Shown here piece after piece: positions 2,503 to 34,267 of a DNA stretch of 39,730 nucleotides (position 1 is the first letter of the stretch; every line of letters starts with the position of its first letter). A model generated the notes under the pieces. The model searched no databases and had not been told where the DNA came from. It saw only the letters and a list, made by a program, of their open reading frames with translations. The translations under genes were made by a program, and so were the position numbers. The stretch is from contig CAUJGS010000045.1 of the NCBI GenBank assembly GCA_963170185.1, positions 1 through 39,730 on the forward strand. Reading direction: 5' to 3'. Source of the stretch: Bdellovibrionota bacterium. GTDB lineage: Bacteria > Bdellovibrionota > Bdellovibrionia > Bdellovibrionales > JAMPXM01.

Positions 2503-3255
2503 ATGAACCTTTCCCGTGCGCTTTTGACTCTCGGTATTTGCGTGATCGGTTTTTGTTCTCTCGTGAGCAAAACCGCACGTGCAGCGGACATCATTTACAT
2601 CGGCGACTCACATTCGACCGGCGGTTTCGGCGAAGTGGTCGACGCGGGCTTAAGAAAAATCAAGCTTGCCTCTGGCCAATCGGCAAAGGTGGTAAGCCTT
2701 GCGGCTTGCGGATCGGCGACCAGCGATTGGTTGAAGTCGCGAGGGCCGGTTTCAAGATGTGGAGTTCGTACGTGCGACGCCTCTGGCGAGTGCAAGCTGT
2801 CTCGCGACGGTCGTGTTGATCCGATCATGGTGCTGCTCGGGAAAGAGGAACCGAAGGTCGTTGTCGTAGCCCTGGGAACCAACATGCTAAAAGCACGGGT
2901 TGGTGACGCGATCAATGATGCCAAGGCGATGATCGAAAAGATCAAAGACAAGGGTGCCGAGTGTGTATGGGTAGGGCCGCCGCAAGCGGCACTTTCCTAT
3001 ATGCCAGAAACACGTTTTAAAGACTTCGTTGAAAAGTTCAGTCTTGGAATCGAGGAAGCTGGCTGTCGTTATGTCTCGAGTCTGGACAAAACGGATCGCG
3101 GAAACATCAACGATCCGATGGGTCTTCACTACGCAAAAAAAGACGCCGAGCGCTGGGGTGAGAAAGTGACAAAAGAGCTGGGTCCTCTCGTGGACGCCGC
3201 ACTCACAGCTGTGCGCCCCCAGGCCCCGGCCACCAGCGAAGCCCCCGTCAGATAG
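2503..3255 (+). CDS. Exported SGNH/GDSL-like hydrolase
   Basis: A 250-residue protein with a signal peptide (about residues 1-28, ending TARAA). The mature part shows the four SGNH blocks: GDSHS with the nucleophile Ser (block I), ACGSAT with the oxyanion Gly (block II), LGTNM with the Asn (block III) and DPMGLHY with the Asp-x-x-x-x-His pair (block V). Such proteins are esterases, lipases or polysaccharide O-deacetylases acting outside the cytoplasm; the substrate cannot be told. ADIIYIGDSHSTGGFG directly after the cleavage site is typical of the family. The ATG has a strong Shine-Dalgarno sequence (AAGGGGGCAGG). The TAG stop lies inside the 63-bp inverted repeat shared with the convergent gene. 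Confidence 0.75.
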   Translation: MNLSRALLTLGICVIGFCSLVSKTARAADIIYIGDSHSTGGFGEVVDAGLRKIKLASGQSAKVVSLAACGSATSDWLKSRGPVSRCGVRTCDASGECKLSRDGRVDPIMVLLGKEEPKVVVVALGTNMLKARVGDAINDAKAMIEKIKDKGAECVWVGPPQAALSYMPETRFKDFVEKFSLGIEEAGCRYVSSLDKTDRGNINDPMGLHYAKKDAERWGEKVTKELGPLVDAALTAVRPQAPATSEAPVR

Positions 3256-3315
3256 AAAGTGCCATCTTCCTTTTTGAAACGCACCGCGTTTCAAAAAGGA
3301 AGATGGCACTTTCTA
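3253..3315. repeat. Perfect 30-bp inverted repeat containing both convergent stop codons
   Basis: Bases 3253-3282 are the exact complement of 3286-3315, with a three-base loop (ACC). The outermost three bases of each arm are the stop codons: TAG of the SGNH-like gene at 3253-3255 and, on the other strand, TAG of the coiled-coil/sHSP gene at 3313-3315. Any transcript from either side would fold into a 30-bp hairpin starting at its stop codon. There is no T-run after it on either strand, so it may act through RNA duplex formation or processing rather than as a standard terminator. Confidence 0.85.
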
Positions 3316-4848
3316 GCGCTTCGGGATGGTGATCGTGATGGCGCCGTCTTCGTCGATGTTTTTCACGATCCCTTCGCGCACGATCGGTTGTTTAAGGGCG
3401 AACTCTTGGCGCCATGTTTGATGATTGCTCGTCGATGAAATACTACCAGCGACTTCGCGCTTATCGCTAAACTGTCTAGTCGCGGAAATCCATGCGCGTC
3501 CATCCTTCACACGAATGTCGACTTTCTCGCGTTCGTGGGCGGGGATCTTGGCGTAGATCGTATAACGGTTTTCATCTTCAGTCAGTTTGGCTTCGAAAGT
3601 TTGAAGCTTGTAGAAAGGGTCTTCCTTCCGAGCTTCCATTTTGCTGTGTTTGGCATCGTAGGCCTGTTGCTGGCGATACAACGCCTTGAGATAGCGCTCA
3701 TTTTGATTCTCAAGAGTTGCGCGATGGACAGAGTCATTTCGTTTTAAGCGCGCTTGGAAGTCGGCCTCTTGCTCGCCAAGAGTGACCTTGTGGAGTTTGT
3801 CGCGCTCATCGATTTTCGTGCGCAGTTCGGCGTTGTCCTGTTTGGCTTTTTCGTGATTCACCCGAGCCCGCTCTTCGGATTCGGTTTTATAAAGCTCATT
3901 TTGTTCTTGCAGGTTTTTGCGAATCTCGACTTTTTTCGATTCAACGGTTTGATCGCCTTCACGTTGAATGCGTTGGGACTCGGTCGAATATTCGCGCTGC
4001 ATCTTCTCGTTGGTGGTTAAGAAGCGCGAGCGAGAGTCCGAGAGTTCCCGGCTTTGTTTTTGATCGAGATCCACACGGCGTTTTTCGCCCTCGGTCTGCG
4101 TTTGTTGATAAGCTCGTCTCGCCTGCGCTCGCATTTCGCCGATGGCGCGATTAGAGGTGACGCGCTCGTCCTCAAGGCGCTTTTGGTGGCCTTCGCGAAG
4201 CTCGGATTCGGTCTCACTATTTTGCCGACGGAGTTCCGCCAGCGAAGTGTCGGACTGTTTTCTGATCTGCTGGAGTTTTTCCTGAGCTTGGTTTTGCTCT
4301 TTACCGAGTCGCGCGCTGTTGTCGGCTTTTTGCGAGGCAATCTCGCGGTTGAACTTTTCTTGCGTCTCTTGGAACTCTTTTCGCCCTCTGGCATGCAGGC
4401 GTTGCTGGAGCTGCGATTGTTCGTCTAGCGACTCGCGGAGACGTGACTGCGAGTCTTCAAGTTTTTTGGTGTGATTTTCTCGCAGGTTTTGCAGTTGCAC
4501 TTGGTTGCGATCTTGTTCAGCTTGGATTTCGCTTCGCGATGTATCGCGAGTCGCGGCGCTGCGTGTTTTGAGATTCGCGTACTCGCGGTCGGAATGCTCT
4601 CTTGCCTGGCGAACCTTGTCTTGTCCGACTTGTTCGGCCTGGCGAGCCCGAGTTTCGCTTGTCTGCTTGATATGGTTCACGGCCGCCGCGCCAGCTTCGC
4701 GAGCTTCGTTTTCGACGCGCCGGTTGTTGGAACGAATACGGCGAAGCTCGGCTTCGTGCTGCGATTGCAACGACGCTTTTTGCTCAACGTGCTCGTCCTG
4801 CATTTCGCGGATCTGCGATTGGCGAGTAATCGACAAGTCAGAGGCCAT
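3313..4848 (-). CDS. Long coiled-coil protein with a C-terminal alpha-crystallin (sHSP)-like domain
   Basis: A 511-residue protein. Residues from about 10 to 400 are one almost continuous, highly charged coiled coil rich in Glu, Gln, Arg and Lys, with no Pro breaks. The last 100 residues form a beta-rich domain that reads like an Hsp20/alpha-crystallin fold: YTIYAKIPAHEREKVDIRV, a WIS strand, then QEFALKQPIVREGI, and the closing IDEDGAITITIPKR, as in small heat-shock proteins. Known sHSPs carry a short N-terminal arm instead, so the fusion is unusual. No signal peptide is seen, so it is probably a cytoplasmic scaffold or filament-like protein. The ATG at 4848 is chosen because GGAGGGG lies six bases before it; ATGs at 4863 and 4854 lie upstream of or next to that site. 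It is the last of three same-strand genes. Confidence 0.7.
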   Translation of the reverse strand: MASDLSITRQSQIREMQDEHVEQKASLQSQHEAELRRIRSNNRRVENEAREAGAAAVNHIKQTSETRARQAEQVGQDKVRQAREHSDREYANLKTRSAATRDTSRSEIQAEQDRNQVQLQNLRENHTKKLEDSQSRLRESLDEQSQLQQRLHARGRKEFQETQEKFNREIASQKADNSARLGKEQNQAQEKLQQIRKQSDTSLAELRRQNSETESELREGHQKRLEDERVTSNRAIGEMRAQARRAYQQTQTEGEKRRVDLDQKQSRELSDSRSRFLTTNEKMQREYSTESQRIQREGDQTVESKKVEIRKNLQEQNELYKTESEERARVNHEKAKQDNAELRTKIDERDKLHKVTLGEQEADFQARLKRNDSVHRATLENQNERYLKALYRQQQAYDAKHSKMEARKEDPFYKLQTFEAKLTEDENRYTIYAKIPAHEREKVDIRVKDGRAWISATRQFSDKREVAGSISSTSNHQTWRQEFALKQPIVREGIVKNIDEDGAITITIPKR

Positions 4849-4950
4849 CGGCATCCCCTCCATGGGACGTGCTTTTAGCGTATCATGCCTCTATGAAAAT
4901 CGAGTTTTCTCGAGCCGGTCGTGGAGGGGAAATTCGCCAAAGGTCGCGGG

Positions 4951-5280
4951 TTAGCGGGGAGGCGAGGCTGGATTTCGGTCCAGGGGTGCCGAAGCTGGCG
5001 CTGGAGCGGTTTGTTCTGGCGCCGGACAAAGGGTACCGGCGTAGTCATTTCGATCAAAGCACATCCAAGTTTGCTCGATGGAAATCGCCTCGGATCGCTT
5101 GATGGGAAAGTATCCCGCGTACTGAAGATCGTCGAGACGGCTTACGACCTCGCGATCTGTTCCTGTTTCTGAATTCACGATCTTTAAACGAAACACACGA
5201 AACTCAGCCTTAGCCGGAGAGCCAAGAACGAGGAAGGTGATTGCGATGATCGCGCTGAGAGACTGCGATAAGCCTGTCAT
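4951..5280 (-). CDS. Small exported protein of unknown function
   Basis: 109 residues with a clear signal peptide (residues 1-25, ending SPAKA). The mature part begins EFRVFRLKI and contains SRLDDLQYAGYFP and a TWMCFDR stretch with a possible disulfide partner (Cys in GTLCP). The tail is Pro/Ala-rich. I recognise no characterised family, but it looks like a conserved periplasmic protein. The ATG has no Shine-Dalgarno sequence. It lies six bases after a sigma-28-type -10 element (5287-5294) and is the centre of a perfect 12-bp palindrome (5266-5292), so the mRNA may be leaderless. The gene upstream ends 38 nt away and may also read through. Confidence 0.65.
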   Translation of the reverse strand: MTGLSQSLSAIIAITFLVLGSPAKAEFRVFRLKIVNSETGTDREVVSRLDDLQYAGYFPIKRSEAISIEQTWMCFDRNDYAGTLCPAPEQTAPAPASAPLDRNPASPPR

Positions 5281-5292
5281 ACAGGCTTATCG
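5266..5292. repeat. Perfect 12-bp palindrome with the start codon as its loop
   Basis: On the minus strand CGATAAGCCTGT, then ATG, then ACAGGCTTATCG. Both arms match exactly and the three-base centre is the start codon of the exported protein gene. In a transcript coming from the upstream gene, the start codon would sit in the tip of a 12-bp hairpin. Confidence 0.85.
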
Positions 5293-5314
5293 GCACTTTT
5301 TGGATCGGTGTTTA
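5287..5314 (-). promoter_or_regulatory. Sigma-28 (FliA)-type promoter candidate
   Basis: Minus strand: TAAA (5311-5314), 16-base spacer, GCCGATAA (5287-5294). The E. coli FliA consensus is TAAA-N15-GCCGATAA, so the -10 element is exact and the spacer is one base longer. The expected start of transcription falls on or next to the ATG at 5280. Confidence 0.55.
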
Positions 5315-5318
5315 TAGC

Positions 5319-5792
5319 TCAGTGTTTGAGATCGAAATTCGTCTGAATCGCGTTTTCTACGAGATGGAAGTAGGCCCGAATCATGAGATCGCGCTCAAGA
5401 GCGTTGAGCGATTTCAAGAAACGTTCTTTGTCCATCAAGGTCGGTTTTTCCAAGAAGCGAGAAAGCAGGTTCTGCACGCGTTCCATATTGCGTAGAGTGA
5501 AAAACTCCTTTTCGTCTGTGGGAGTCATCATCACGCGGGCAACATCTTTTTTATCAAAGAGAAAGTGTACGCCGAGAGTGCTCTGATGAATCAGATACTC
5601 GATTTGCGCAGTGTCTTTCGTGGCTGACTTTTTCCCGAGCCCAACATGGAGCTCGGTTCTTTCGCCACTGTCGAGCTGGTCGTTTTTCAGATCCTCAGGC
5701 AAGCCCTCGTCTCCACTGGTGCCGTCGGGGTGTTCATTCTTGAAACCCGTAAACCGAGACCCTCTCGAGCCTCCGCCTCGTCCATTGCGCAT
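5319..5792 (-). CDS. Conserved-looking cytoplasmic protein of unknown function
   Basis: 157 residues from an ATG with GGGAGG three bases upstream. An in-frame ATG at 5867 would give 182 aa but has no ribosome binding site and a very basic leader. The first third is Gly/Arg/Asp-rich and probably disordered. From about residue 60 it becomes an ordered, mostly helical domain with IEYLIHQSTLGVHFLF, VARVMMTPTDEKEFFTLRN and a C-terminal helical stretch ALERDLMIRAYFHLVENAI. No signal peptide or membrane segment. I do not recognise a family. It heads a minus-strand set with the exported protein (37 nt apart) and the sHSP-like gene. Confidence 0.65.
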   Translation of the reverse strand: MRNGRGGGSRGSRFTGFKNEHPDGTSGDEGLPEDLKNDQLDSGERTELHVGLGKKSATKDTAQIEYLIHQSTLGVHFLFDKKDVARVMMTPTDEKEFFTLRNMERVQNLLSRFLEKPTLMDKERFLKSLNALERDLMIRAYFHLVENAIQTNFDLKH

Positions 5793-5892
5793 AAGCCTCC
5801 CTGCTTTCTGCTTGGTCGTCCTGTCTTTTACGACAGGAAGTCGTATTCCTGGTCTTCTGGACCACATCTTAAAACAGCTCGTCCTTAAGGCC

Positions 5893-6317: not shown

Positions 6318-7238
6318 ATGTCTCATTCATCTCATTCAGGTTCTAAGGTCGGTGCACGCACTGGAAGTGCTGCGAAAGCCGCTCGCAAAGCTAAGGGGCC
6401 ACTCGTGAAAGATCCTATCGTGATCGACGAAGCCAAAGGCCTCGTGTTTGATACCGAACGTGAACTCTACCGCCATTTCCAACCCCAGATCTCGATGCTC
6501 GAAGATGAAGTTCTTGAGCACCACGCGTCGGATGACATTCCGTCGGCAGACTTTAAAAAATACGAGCCTCTGCTTCAGCAGGTGATCGATGACCCAGATG
6601 AAATCTGGCAAGACGTGGTCTCTCTGCACGGTATGCGCGTGACGAGCTTCGTTGGTCACTACATCACCGACAGCACGAAGAGTCTCGACGACAAAGAAGC
6701 TGGCGTTTACTACGTGGCCTTGGCCTACGCGGTCGAAGGAAGCGCGCGCTTCATTTATTTGCACTTTCCATCCCGAGACTTGAAACTTGTTGATCGATTC
6801 CGCCGAGGTGAGTTGATCTATGACCGAGTTATGAAAGAAGTCGAAAAGGGCGCAGTCGAGGGCGATGCGCTATCAGAAGGTGACGCGCTGGCGGTTGGTC
6901 TTTACAAGGCCATGCTGGCTCTGCGCAGTGGTTCGGACCTCGCAGAAGAGGTTTTCCGCGACTACGAAGAATCCCGTGAGCCGACGATCGAAGAGCCGGA
7001 CGAAATCTGGCGCTCCGCTGATAGCGGCCAAACGCTTGTGACGTTCGTTAAAAAGTTTGATGACGAAACGGGCGACGGCGAGGACTTCTGGTACTTGGCG
7101 ATCACCGTTGAGGATGAGGCGAGCTCCAGCCATGCGCTGCTCTTCTCGTTTCCAACGACCGACGAAAACCTCGTTGATCGTTACAGGCACGGAGAAAACC
7201 TCCAGGCCGAAGAAGTGACACAAGAAGCTAGTCACTAA
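6318..7238 (+). CDS. Protein of two related domains (possible PBECR2-like fold)
   Basis: 306 residues; strong Shine-Dalgarno (GGGGGG) before the ATG. The basic N-terminus (Ser, Gly, Ala, Lys, Arg) is probably disordered. Two homologous segments follow. Residues about 91-166 begin PDEIWQDV and end FPSRDLKLVDRFRRGE. Residues about 226-295 begin PDEIWRSA and end FPTTDENLVDRYRHGE. In each, the middle holds a YYVALAYA or FWYLAITV strand and an IYLHF or LLFSF strand. The PDEIW opening and beta-strand pattern remind me of PBECR2 nuclease-fold domains, known from phage and toxin proteins, but I cannot confirm this. No signal peptide. The gene stands alone, followed by a run of hairpins and an intrinsic terminator at 7342-7374. 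Confidence 0.6.
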   Translation: MSHSSHSGSKVGARTGSAAKAARKAKGPLVKDPIVIDEAKGLVFDTERELYRHFQPQISMLEDEVLEHHASDDIPSADFKKYEPLLQQVIDDPDEIWQDVVSLHGMRVTSFVGHYITDSTKSLDDKEAGVYYVALAYAVEGSARFIYLHFPSRDLKLVDRFRRGELIYDRVMKEVEKGAVEGDALSEGDALAVGLYKAMLALRSGSDLAEEVFRDYEESREPTIEEPDEIWRSADSGQTLVTFVKKFDDETGDGEDFWYLAITVEDEASSSHALLFSFPTTDENLVDRYRHGENLQAEEVTQEASH

Positions 7239-29858: not shown

Positions 29859-29888
29859 AAAAAGCCGAGGAGAAATCCTCGGCTTTTT
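29859..29888. terminator. Bidirectional intrinsic terminator between dnaK and the barrel protein
   Basis: A perfect 13-bp stem AAAAAGCCGAGGA / TCCTCGGCTTTTT with a GAAA loop. T-runs lie on both sides (on the minus strand, seven T), so it should end both convergent transcripts. Confidence 0.93.
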
Positions 29889-32655: not shown

Positions 32656-32829
32656 AATTCGCCTCCTAAAAAAACAGATCAATCGTGTTGCTAAAGGAGT
32701 TCAAAAAGGGGGCCGCAGGAGAAGCAATTGAGCGCTATTACGCAAGGGAACGCTGTCAAAAGAGTCGACGGTTTGTTTTGGGAAATGCAGTTTCGAAGAG
32801 ATTAGGCAGTCTAGGTCTTAGGTCGAGTT

Positions 32830-32837
32830 GCCGATAA
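32830..32837 (+). promoter_or_regulatory. Sigma-28-type -10 element before the FecR-domain gene
   Basis: An exact GCCGATAA, eight bases before the ATG at 32846. The -35 position (CTAG at 32811-32814) is weak. The expected transcription start falls at the ATG. Confidence 0.45.
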
Positions 32838-32845
32838 GAGCTATC

Positions 32846-34267
32846 ATGCGGAACGTCGGATGGCGGACCTATAAAAACATTCCTATGCAATGGCTGCCGC
32901 AATTCCTGATGGCGATCCCAGTAGGTTTCTGGGGTTTTGTTTTCATCCTGTTTTCCGTTGGCGTCGTGCACGCGACCGATGAGGTTTCATGTCAATGTGA
33001 GCCGGTTTCATGCGGTGCCTGTGAAGTGGAGGACGGTCTCGATTTTTACTCGGCCAAATGTGGACCTCGTGGTGCAAAAACCAAATCATGCAAACGACCA
33101 CTATGCCGGCCAGTGGAGAATCAAAACGTATGTTTATCTAAGCTTCGGCGAAGTTCGGCGTCGAATTCGCTGGCGACTACCGAATCGCCCGTGCAACAAG
33201 CTCTGGCGCGTGCGCCGGCTTCTGCCGAATACGGCGAGGGCAATCAGTCGGCGGAAGTCGTACTTGCTAGAGGAAGCGTCAGTGTTGTCCGCTTGGCTAA
33301 TCTCGGGCGCGCAGCCGAAGGAAGACGTTTGGGTCAGCGCGAGGCGGAGTCGGAAAAGTCTCCACTGCGCGAAGGGGAGCGTGTCCAGGTTGGAGATCGT
33401 ATTTTGACCGGAGCAGACGGTCGCGTGCGTCTGCGGTTTGCGGAGCTTTCGGAAATTTTCGTGAGCCCCAACTCGGGAATCGTCGTGGAAGAAGCGTTGC
33501 TTGAAAAACGAGTCGGCCCTCCGAAGCGAACGATCATCATCAATCTCAAACAGGGGCGGCTTCGTAGCCGAGTTCAAGGCCGTTACGATGACGGGGAGTC
33601 GCGCTTTCAGGTTAAAACCCGTTCGGCTGTCGCGGGTGTCAGGGGAACGGATTTTGTCGTCTCGTTTTATCCGGGCGAGCAAGATTGGAAAACAGAAGTT
33701 CACACCCTAAGCGGGCAAGTCTGCTTTGGTCGTGATCCCGAGTGCGAAAAGCCATTTCTTGAAACAAGCGCACCTATGAACTCCGCGAAGTCGGTCGTGG
33801 TCGGCGCCGGCCTATACGCTTCCTATGTTTCGCCGGCTCCGCCGGAGGACGCCACCCCTGAAGAGGCCAAAGACATTCTTGATCGCGGTCTCTTGTCGCC
33901 GTTGTTTCGCATGACCGAAGAGGATTTTGAGAAGTTGAAAACGCAAACGGACATTCGGTACGACTTGCAGGCCGCCAGAGGCCCATCGGCAGCCGGCACT
34001 TTTCCTAGCGGAGTGTCTTCCGGCGGTGCCGCAGAAGAAACGTGTTCGGCTCCGGCCGGCGCCTTTAACAAGTGCTCTTGGAGCTGCGAAGGAAACCCTA
34101 AAGGAGCTTCGAGCTGTCGTACGGATTTGCCAGGAGTTCATTGCGTGCGTCGTCTTTGCCGGGCAAACGGGCAGTGGGCGGAGCCAAGCGTCTTGCCTGC
34201 TCGGCGCGGCGCAAAGGAGTGCGAGTCCGTACGATCGATCGTGAAGGACTGCGGAGTTTACTGGTAG
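32846..34267 (+). CDS. Exported FecR-domain protein with Cys-rich ends
   Basis: 473 residues. An N-terminal hydrophobic segment (LMAIPVGFWGFVFILFSVGVV, about residues 21-41) acts as signal or anchor. A Cys-rich stretch follows (CQCEPVSCGACE, KCGP, SCKRPLC). A FecR domain covers about residues 135-290: VVLARGSVSVVR, REGERVQVGDRILTGADGRVRLRF, IIINLKQGRLRSRV and TRSAVAGVRGTDFVVSF. FecR domains otherwise transmit signals to anti-sigma factors or occur in secreted structural proteins. The end is again Cys-rich (CSWSCEG, HCVRRLCRANGQW), like small disulfide-bonded modules. Start chosen at ATG 32846 because the in-frame TTG at 32828 lies in the promoter element; the ATG at 32885 or 32909 remains possible. 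The mRNA may be leaderless. Confidence 0.7.
   Translation: MRNVGWRTYKNIPMQWLPQFLMAIPVGFWGFVFILFSVGVVHATDEVSCQCEPVSCGACEVEDGLDFYSAKCGPRGAKTKSCKRPLCRPVENQNVCLSKLRRSSASNSLATTESPVQQALARAPASAEYGEGNQSAEVVLARGSVSVVRLANLGRAAEGRRLGQREAESEKSPLREGERVQVGDRILTGADGRVRLRFAELSEIFVSPNSGIVVEEALLEKRVGPPKRTIIINLKQGRLRSRVQGRYDDGESRFQVKTRSAVAGVRGTDFVVSFYPGEQDWKTEVHTLSGQVCFGRDPECEKPFLETSAPMNSAKSVVVGAGLYASYVSPAPPEDATPEEAKDILDRGLLSPLFRMTEEDFEKLKTQTDIRYDLQAARGPSAAGTFPSGVSSGGAAEETCSAPAGAFNKCSWSCEGNPKGASSCRTDLPGVHCVRRLCRANGQWAEPSVLPARRGAKECESVRSIVKDCGVYW

Follow-up and report, generated by a model that had tools for sequence, protein, structure and literature searches.

Whether a gene is expressed can depend on where its RNA begins, and the start codon of one small gene in a Bdellovibrionota genome raises this question in an acute form. 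Within the window (the whole stretch of 39,730 nucleotides that was analysed), this codon lies just behind a sigma-28 promoter and at the center of a palindrome. An initial annotation of the DNA proposed that a transcript from this promoter would begin at the ATG, that RNA arriving from the upstream gene would instead bury the same ATG in a hairpin, and that the layout might act as a switch between growth phases. Does the origin of the RNA decide whether this gene is read? The coordinates of the features (Table 1) confirm the geometry on which the proposal was built, an exact -10 element six bases before an ATG that is centered in a perfect 12-bp palindrome. The strand was left unstated in the annotation; the whole arrangement of promoter, start codon, hairpin, and the three genes that we call A, B, and C is on the minus strand.

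Table 1. Position of the genes and regulatory elements around the gene B start in the window
Feature	Coordinates	Strand	Basis	Description
Gene A	5319..5867	-	ORF	Upstream of gene B; conserved protein without a known family
-35-like element TAAAC	5310..5314	-		N16 from CCGATA
Sigma-28 (FliA) -10 element GCCGATAA	5287..5294	-		Exact; ends 6 nt before the gene B ATG
Hairpin over the start codon	5266..5292	-	Orthologue fold test, p 0.002	Perfect 12-bp stem, start codon as the 3-nt loop
Gene B	4951..5280	-	ORF	Small secreted protein of 109 aa; start ATG 5280-5278
Gene C	3313..4863	-		Downstream of gene B; long coiled coil and C-terminal Hsp20-like domain

Gene B and its neighbors

Gene B is a real gene. 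Orthologues were found in 76 of 99 relatives, and their alignment reveals a signal peptide followed by A-E-Y-R-V-F, one invariant W, and two invariant C residues. ATG 5280 is the sole standard start that gives a signal peptide because an in-frame TAA lies two codons upstream and no further ATG, GTG, or TTG occurs within the signal peptide. The protein matches no Pfam or NCBIfam family; structure prediction yielded a confident model, yet one without a matching fold in the PDB.

Gene A, whose stop codon is 38 nt before the gene B ATG, is present in 90 of the 99 relatives, usually adjoining gene B, and is a possible source of read-through RNA into gene B. It likewise has no match in Pfam or NCBIfam; the part conserved in these 90 of the 99 genomes of the order is the C-terminal half, with a motif like R-x-YFH-[IL]-VEN. 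The 516-aa product of gene C combines about 400 charged residues, probably a coiled coil, with a C-terminal Hsp20/alpha-crystallin domain. Divergent from gene A, a plus-strand gene (6318-7238) encodes a 306-aa protein that matches PBECR2 (phage-Barnase-EndoU-ColicinE5/D-RelE-like nuclease 2) in two stretches with an E value of 1e-17.

A sigma-28 promoter at the gene B start throughout the order

The A-B junction reads TAAAC-N16-CCGATAA-GCCTGT-ATG. To count promoter elements without choosing a motif, we took every in-frame gene B start in the 76 genomes and tallied all 4096 hexamers located 12 to 16 nt upstream. In this unsupervised count, which removes for the promoter (though not for the hairpin) the bias that orthologue start codons were picked partly by motif, CCGATA was the top hexamer, found in 53 of the 76 genomes from 23 genera and 7 families, compared with 3 genomes at the 99th percentile of all hexamers. 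In 50 of these 53 genomes, 7 to 9 nt separate the end of the exact CCGATA from the start codon. Over the range searched upstream of in-frame starts, 69 of the 76 orthologues keep the shorter CCGA, nearly always 6 to 9 nt before the start codon.

When one sequence from each of 35 genera was aligned on the motif, the logo read TTAAG-N16-CCGATA, with T at -21 (89%), T at -20, A at -19, A at -18 (89%), and G at -17. In Bdellovibrio bacteriovorus, 92 of the 140 attack-phase promoters that have been mapped show the same consensus with the same spacing and were assigned to FliA, which regulates the attack phase in Bdellovibrio (PMC3627812). In the window, the -10 element GCCGATAA with its CCGATA is accompanied by a -35 element at N16, and the genome encodes the cognate sigma factor (TIGR02479 above the cut-off; G000:C70:30289-30963); no sigma-70 promoter was found at the gene B start. 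The sigma-28 promoter of the initial annotation is thus strongly supported by the order-wide presence of the published FliA consensus and spacing and by the FliA gene in the genome, and the same evidence makes its leaderless transcript a well-supported prediction.

A predicted leaderless start

In C. jejuni, the sigma-28 element CGATwt lies 6 to 8 nt before the mapped transcription start (PMC3847290). Given this distance and the conserved spacing of CCGATA, gene B RNA should start at the ATG or within a few bases of it. Leaderless or near-leaderless gene B mRNA is predicted across the order, and the spacing between the -10 element and the start is kept across families. There is no Shine-Dalgarno site upstream of the gene B ATG in the window, and SD-like words occur in only 12 of 71 orthologues. 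A literature search for leaderless mRNAs in Bdellovibrio found no paper.

Genome-wide, CCGATA-N5-10-ATG is about 3-fold more frequent in the window genome than the reversed pattern. This excess does not show that leaderless sigma-28 genes are common there, as the N11-16 spacing is about as frequent (142 versus 129). Three sites in the genome have the strict promoter-start pattern. The window itself holds a second leaderless sigma-28 candidate at 32811-32848, where CCGATAA is separated by 8 nt from ATG 32846 and is preceded by T at -21 and A at -18; this ATG is inside a TTG-started ORF (32828-34267), the true start of which may be 32846.

A perfect hairpin encloses the start codon

The arms of the hairpin, CGATAAGCCTGT/ACAGGCTTATCG, are 12 nt long and 100% complementary (5266-5277 and 5281-5292), and they flank the loop CAT at 5278-5280, which reads ATG from the minus strand. 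Judged by dinucleotide shuffling of the window, 0.03 perfect repeats of at least 12 bp (loop of 3 to 10) would be expected per 40 kb; three were observed. The other two, at 3253-3315 and 29859-29888, are in gene-end positions between convergent genes. The former is a perfect 30-bp hairpin with a 3-nt loop between genes 2503-3255(+) and 4863..3313(-), and the stop codons of both genes (TAG/CTA) form its outer ends; thus, the two reading frames, and probably the two transcripts as well, terminate in a single palindrome. Rfam was searched, with no match.

Read-through RNA over the gene B start is predicted to fold at -28.4 kcal/mol (z of -3.3), and the start codon and TIR would lie within this stable helix of the long RNA. 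Opening gene B positions +1 to +13 is predicted to cost 15.1 kcal/mol in the read-through RNA versus 5.3 in the leaderless RNA. Part of the -10 box falls in the 5' arm (5292-5281), an arm that a transcript beginning at the ATG would not contain. At the sequence level, then, the promoter lies over the 5' strand and would give an RNA that lacks it. On the coding strand, the stem is followed by CAGTCTCTC, with 3 T of 9, which falls short of an intrinsic terminator. We also considered an antisense terminator on the plus strand, where T5 follows the palindrome, and set it aside, there being no credible plus-strand gene upstream.

Hairpins recur over the start codons of relatives

If the hairpin acts on the gene B start, similar structures may be expected in relatives. 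The mean folding z was -2.09 at the gene B start and -0.9 to +0.1 at ten shifted positions. We also folded the start regions of 71 orthologues under a constraint that allowed only start-spanning pairs, shuffled the coding part, and used ten shifted positions as the control. At the start, 21 of these orthologues had a hairpin with p<=0.01, as against 0 to 4 of 71 at the shifts, in a test that counts related genomes as separate. A large share of these comes from a single genus, g20, in which 16 of 17 members carry an approximately 20-bp stem; leaving g20 out reduces the count to 5 of 54 orthologues, the window itself being one of the five. The enrichment outside g20 in this first set of orthologues is moderate. 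We then turned to 17 previously unused genomes, fetched later as a hold-out, 15 of which had the promoter and an in-frame start. Hairpins reached the floor of p=0.005 in 7 of these 15 and, with g20 taken out by genus, in 4 of 12.

The stem sequences differ among genera, and the geometry stays the same: the 5' arm is just upstream of the start, the 3' arm is in the first codons, and the start codon sits in the loop or the stem from genus to genus. More than half of the 71 orthologues, including many that keep the promoter, have an absent or weak hairpin. T-rich tails follow the stem in g20 and in genomes G082, G114, G115, and G061; on average, stem tails have 5.4 T per 9 nt versus 4.0 in the already T-rich signal peptide region, a modest difference. 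Thus, relatives do not conserve the sequence of the palindrome, and start-codon hairpins recur without being universal. The initial annotation had made its reading depend on conservation of the palindrome in relatives that keep the gene, and the outcome is divided: the sequence was not preserved, whereas a start hairpin recurs in several genera. Similarly, the idea that a hairpin buries the start in upstream RNA gains from the recurrence of the predicted architecture with different sequences and loses from several relatives that keep the promoter without it (G002, G003, and most of family f4).

Covariation in genus g20

The annotation had also suggested looking for covariation of the two arms in relatives, and this was found in one genus. 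Of the pairs in the 20-bp stem of g20, 5 show compensatory changes (double-sided, in 15 cells), and 97.9% of the cells are paired when twelve distinct sequences are compared over 20 pairs. Covariation amounted to 0.281, compared with 0.168 (sd 0.017) in shuffles, and 0 of 500 shuffles reached it; this count is no probability because the g20 rows are related, and the slid control, which keeps the relatedness and gave 0.04 to 0.11, points in the same direction. The 3' arm is coding, and its amino acids change together with the 5' arm. Tails rich in T, for example CTTTTTATT, follow the stem and resemble those of intrinsic terminators. On this comparative evidence, RNA pairing is selected in g20.

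One g20 genome has 37 exact FliA-consensus sites, and a fold this strong is found only at gene B (z of -7.4; the next is -4.1), which makes the hairpin specific to gene B. Most of the other FliA sites with an ORF in this genome differ from gene B in having a leader of about 20 to 40 nt, often with an SD-like word. Leaderless FliA sites are a minority there, and no other has a comparable start hairpin.

What the hairpin could be

The hairpin could be the 3' end of the gene A transcript, a terminator or an RNA-stabilizing stem that lies over the gene B start merely through the 38-nt gap and does nothing specific for gene B. The 12-bp stem of the window is close behind gene A and could serve gene A alone; short gaps are also found in other genomes (24 nt in G001 and 16 nt in G011, compared to the 38 nt of G000). 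A hairpin between gene A and the promoter in G002, of the same genus (dG of -46.5), and the location of the window's other long perfect repeats between convergent genes suit this explanation as well. However, the stem in the window has no T tract on the coding strand, which argues against a gene A terminator, and the position of the recurrent hairpin tracks the start codon, not the gene A stop. In g20, gene A is 200 to 400 nt upstream of gene B, and the sequences inspected suggest a separate terminator-like hairpin for it; ending gene A would therefore not require the start hairpin, which has nevertheless been retained and covaries. The g20 genus argues against a gene A 3' end as the general explanation, which we consider rather unlikely, although it may apply to the window genome taken by itself.

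Alternatively, the hairpin of the window genome could be a chance or decaying feature, with the promoter alone being important. Within the genus of the window, a clear start-enclosing hairpin is present in just 2 of 5 members (G000 and G001), as this explanation would have it, with a weaker hairpin that includes the ATG in G004 and none in G003. Chance is difficult to reconcile with the number of such repeats expected, and the hairpin recurs independently at the same place in other genera, including held-out genomes; we therefore regard this alternative as improbable. Finally, a perfect dyad over a promoter would suit an operator, and the annotation had allowed for a protein binding site, but a dimeric DNA-binding repressor overlapping the -10 box is very improbable, since the palindrome sequence turns over among relatives while pairing is kept, and the G-U pairs and A-U to G-C exchanges tolerated in the g20 stem fit RNA rather than an operator.

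A start codon probably insulated from upstream RNA

With moderate confidence, we favor the explanation that gene B is a FliA-driven leaderless gene whose start is insulated from upstream RNA by the hairpin. FliA (sigma-28) polymerase would transcribe gene B from a -10 box 6 to 7 nt before the start, giving an mRNA that is leaderless or has a leader of 1 to 3 nt and that would be translated without a Shine-Dalgarno sequence. The hairpin would form only in RNA from upstream, whether read through from gene A or made from another promoter, since the 5' arm belongs to the promoter DNA and is missing from the FliA transcript. In the read-through RNA, the ATG would be held in the 3-nt loop of the 12-bp stem with no Shine-Dalgarno site, and gene B would stay untranslated. 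Where a lineage has a T tract after the stem, transcription would in addition stop at this hairpin, and termination may be the dominant effect there; the 3 T of 9 in the tail of the window imply that translation, not termination, would be the target in this genome. The device would shield a gene of the FliA program from transcription of other phases. The proposed switch between growth phases is plausible because FliA controls the attack phase in Bdellovibrio (PMC3627812).

More tentatively, gene B may be an order-wide chromosomal gene that is locked to one sigma factor twice, by a leaderless sigma-28 start and by a start-spanning hairpin that acts only on the transcripts of other promoters, with the -10 box doubling as part of its 5' arm and, in some lineages, an intrinsic terminator inside the first codons. 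The hairpin would have been repeatedly lost and re-evolved with a new sequence, pointing to selection on function, not on sequence. If this is true, a gene of the FliA program, which is the attack-phase program in Bdellovibrio, would be readable only from RNA that FliA initiates. The same codons would have opposite outputs according to where the RNA began, a prediction that is easily tested, and promoter, start codon, and guard would make up a compact part of about 45 bases. Gene B would then be a bacterial chromosomal case of the logic of T4 gene e, and its leaderless start, kept throughout an order, would be a rarity.

Comparison with known systems

In the protection of Tn10/IS10 from external promoters, transcripts that enter from outside fold into a structure that hides the transposase start, and the element's own transcript is without one arm. 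This resembles the arrangement predicted for gene B in that the structure hides the start in external RNA and the own transcript escapes; it differs in concerning a mobile element with an SD-led mRNA and an unrelated sequence.

In phage T4, gene e (lysozyme), soc, 49, and I-TevI have start sites that a hairpin conceals in early read-through RNA, and the RNA made from a late promoter within the hairpin is open; for gene e, the long early RNA is repressed about 100-fold, whereas the late-promoter RNA without the 5' strand is translated (PMC3014915). As predicted here for gene B, the long RNA of gene e forms an inhibitory structure, a short RNA from a promoter over the 5' strand escapes, and synthesis of the short RNA relies on an alternative sigma factor. 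Unlike gene e, gene B is chromosomal, and its short RNA is predicted to be leaderless and without a Shine-Dalgarno site; moreover, its 5' arm shares bases with the sigma-28 -10 box, and the T tract seen in several lineages gives the hairpin a terminator-like form.

The leaderless mRNAs of Epsilonproteobacteria share with gene B a -10 box directly before the start codon and the absence of an RBS. They depend on sigma-70 and are poorly conserved, with 1 of 23 genes predicted to be leaderless in all species holding it (PMC3847290). In contrast, gene B is a single gene that keeps its layout across an order, with sigma-28.

Two further features upstream of gene B were observed in relatives. At loci L006/L195 of G002, a 48-base perfect palindrome without a T tract, AGGCTAGGGTACCTGCTTCCCAAATTTGGGAAGCAGGTACCCTAGCCT, lies between genes A and B. 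In g20 loci, e.g., L177, L164, and L184, the spacer between the -35 and -10 elements, TTCCCACCGCAAAG, is nearly invariant, which exceeds the need of a promoter spacer or that of the hairpin (AAAG only).
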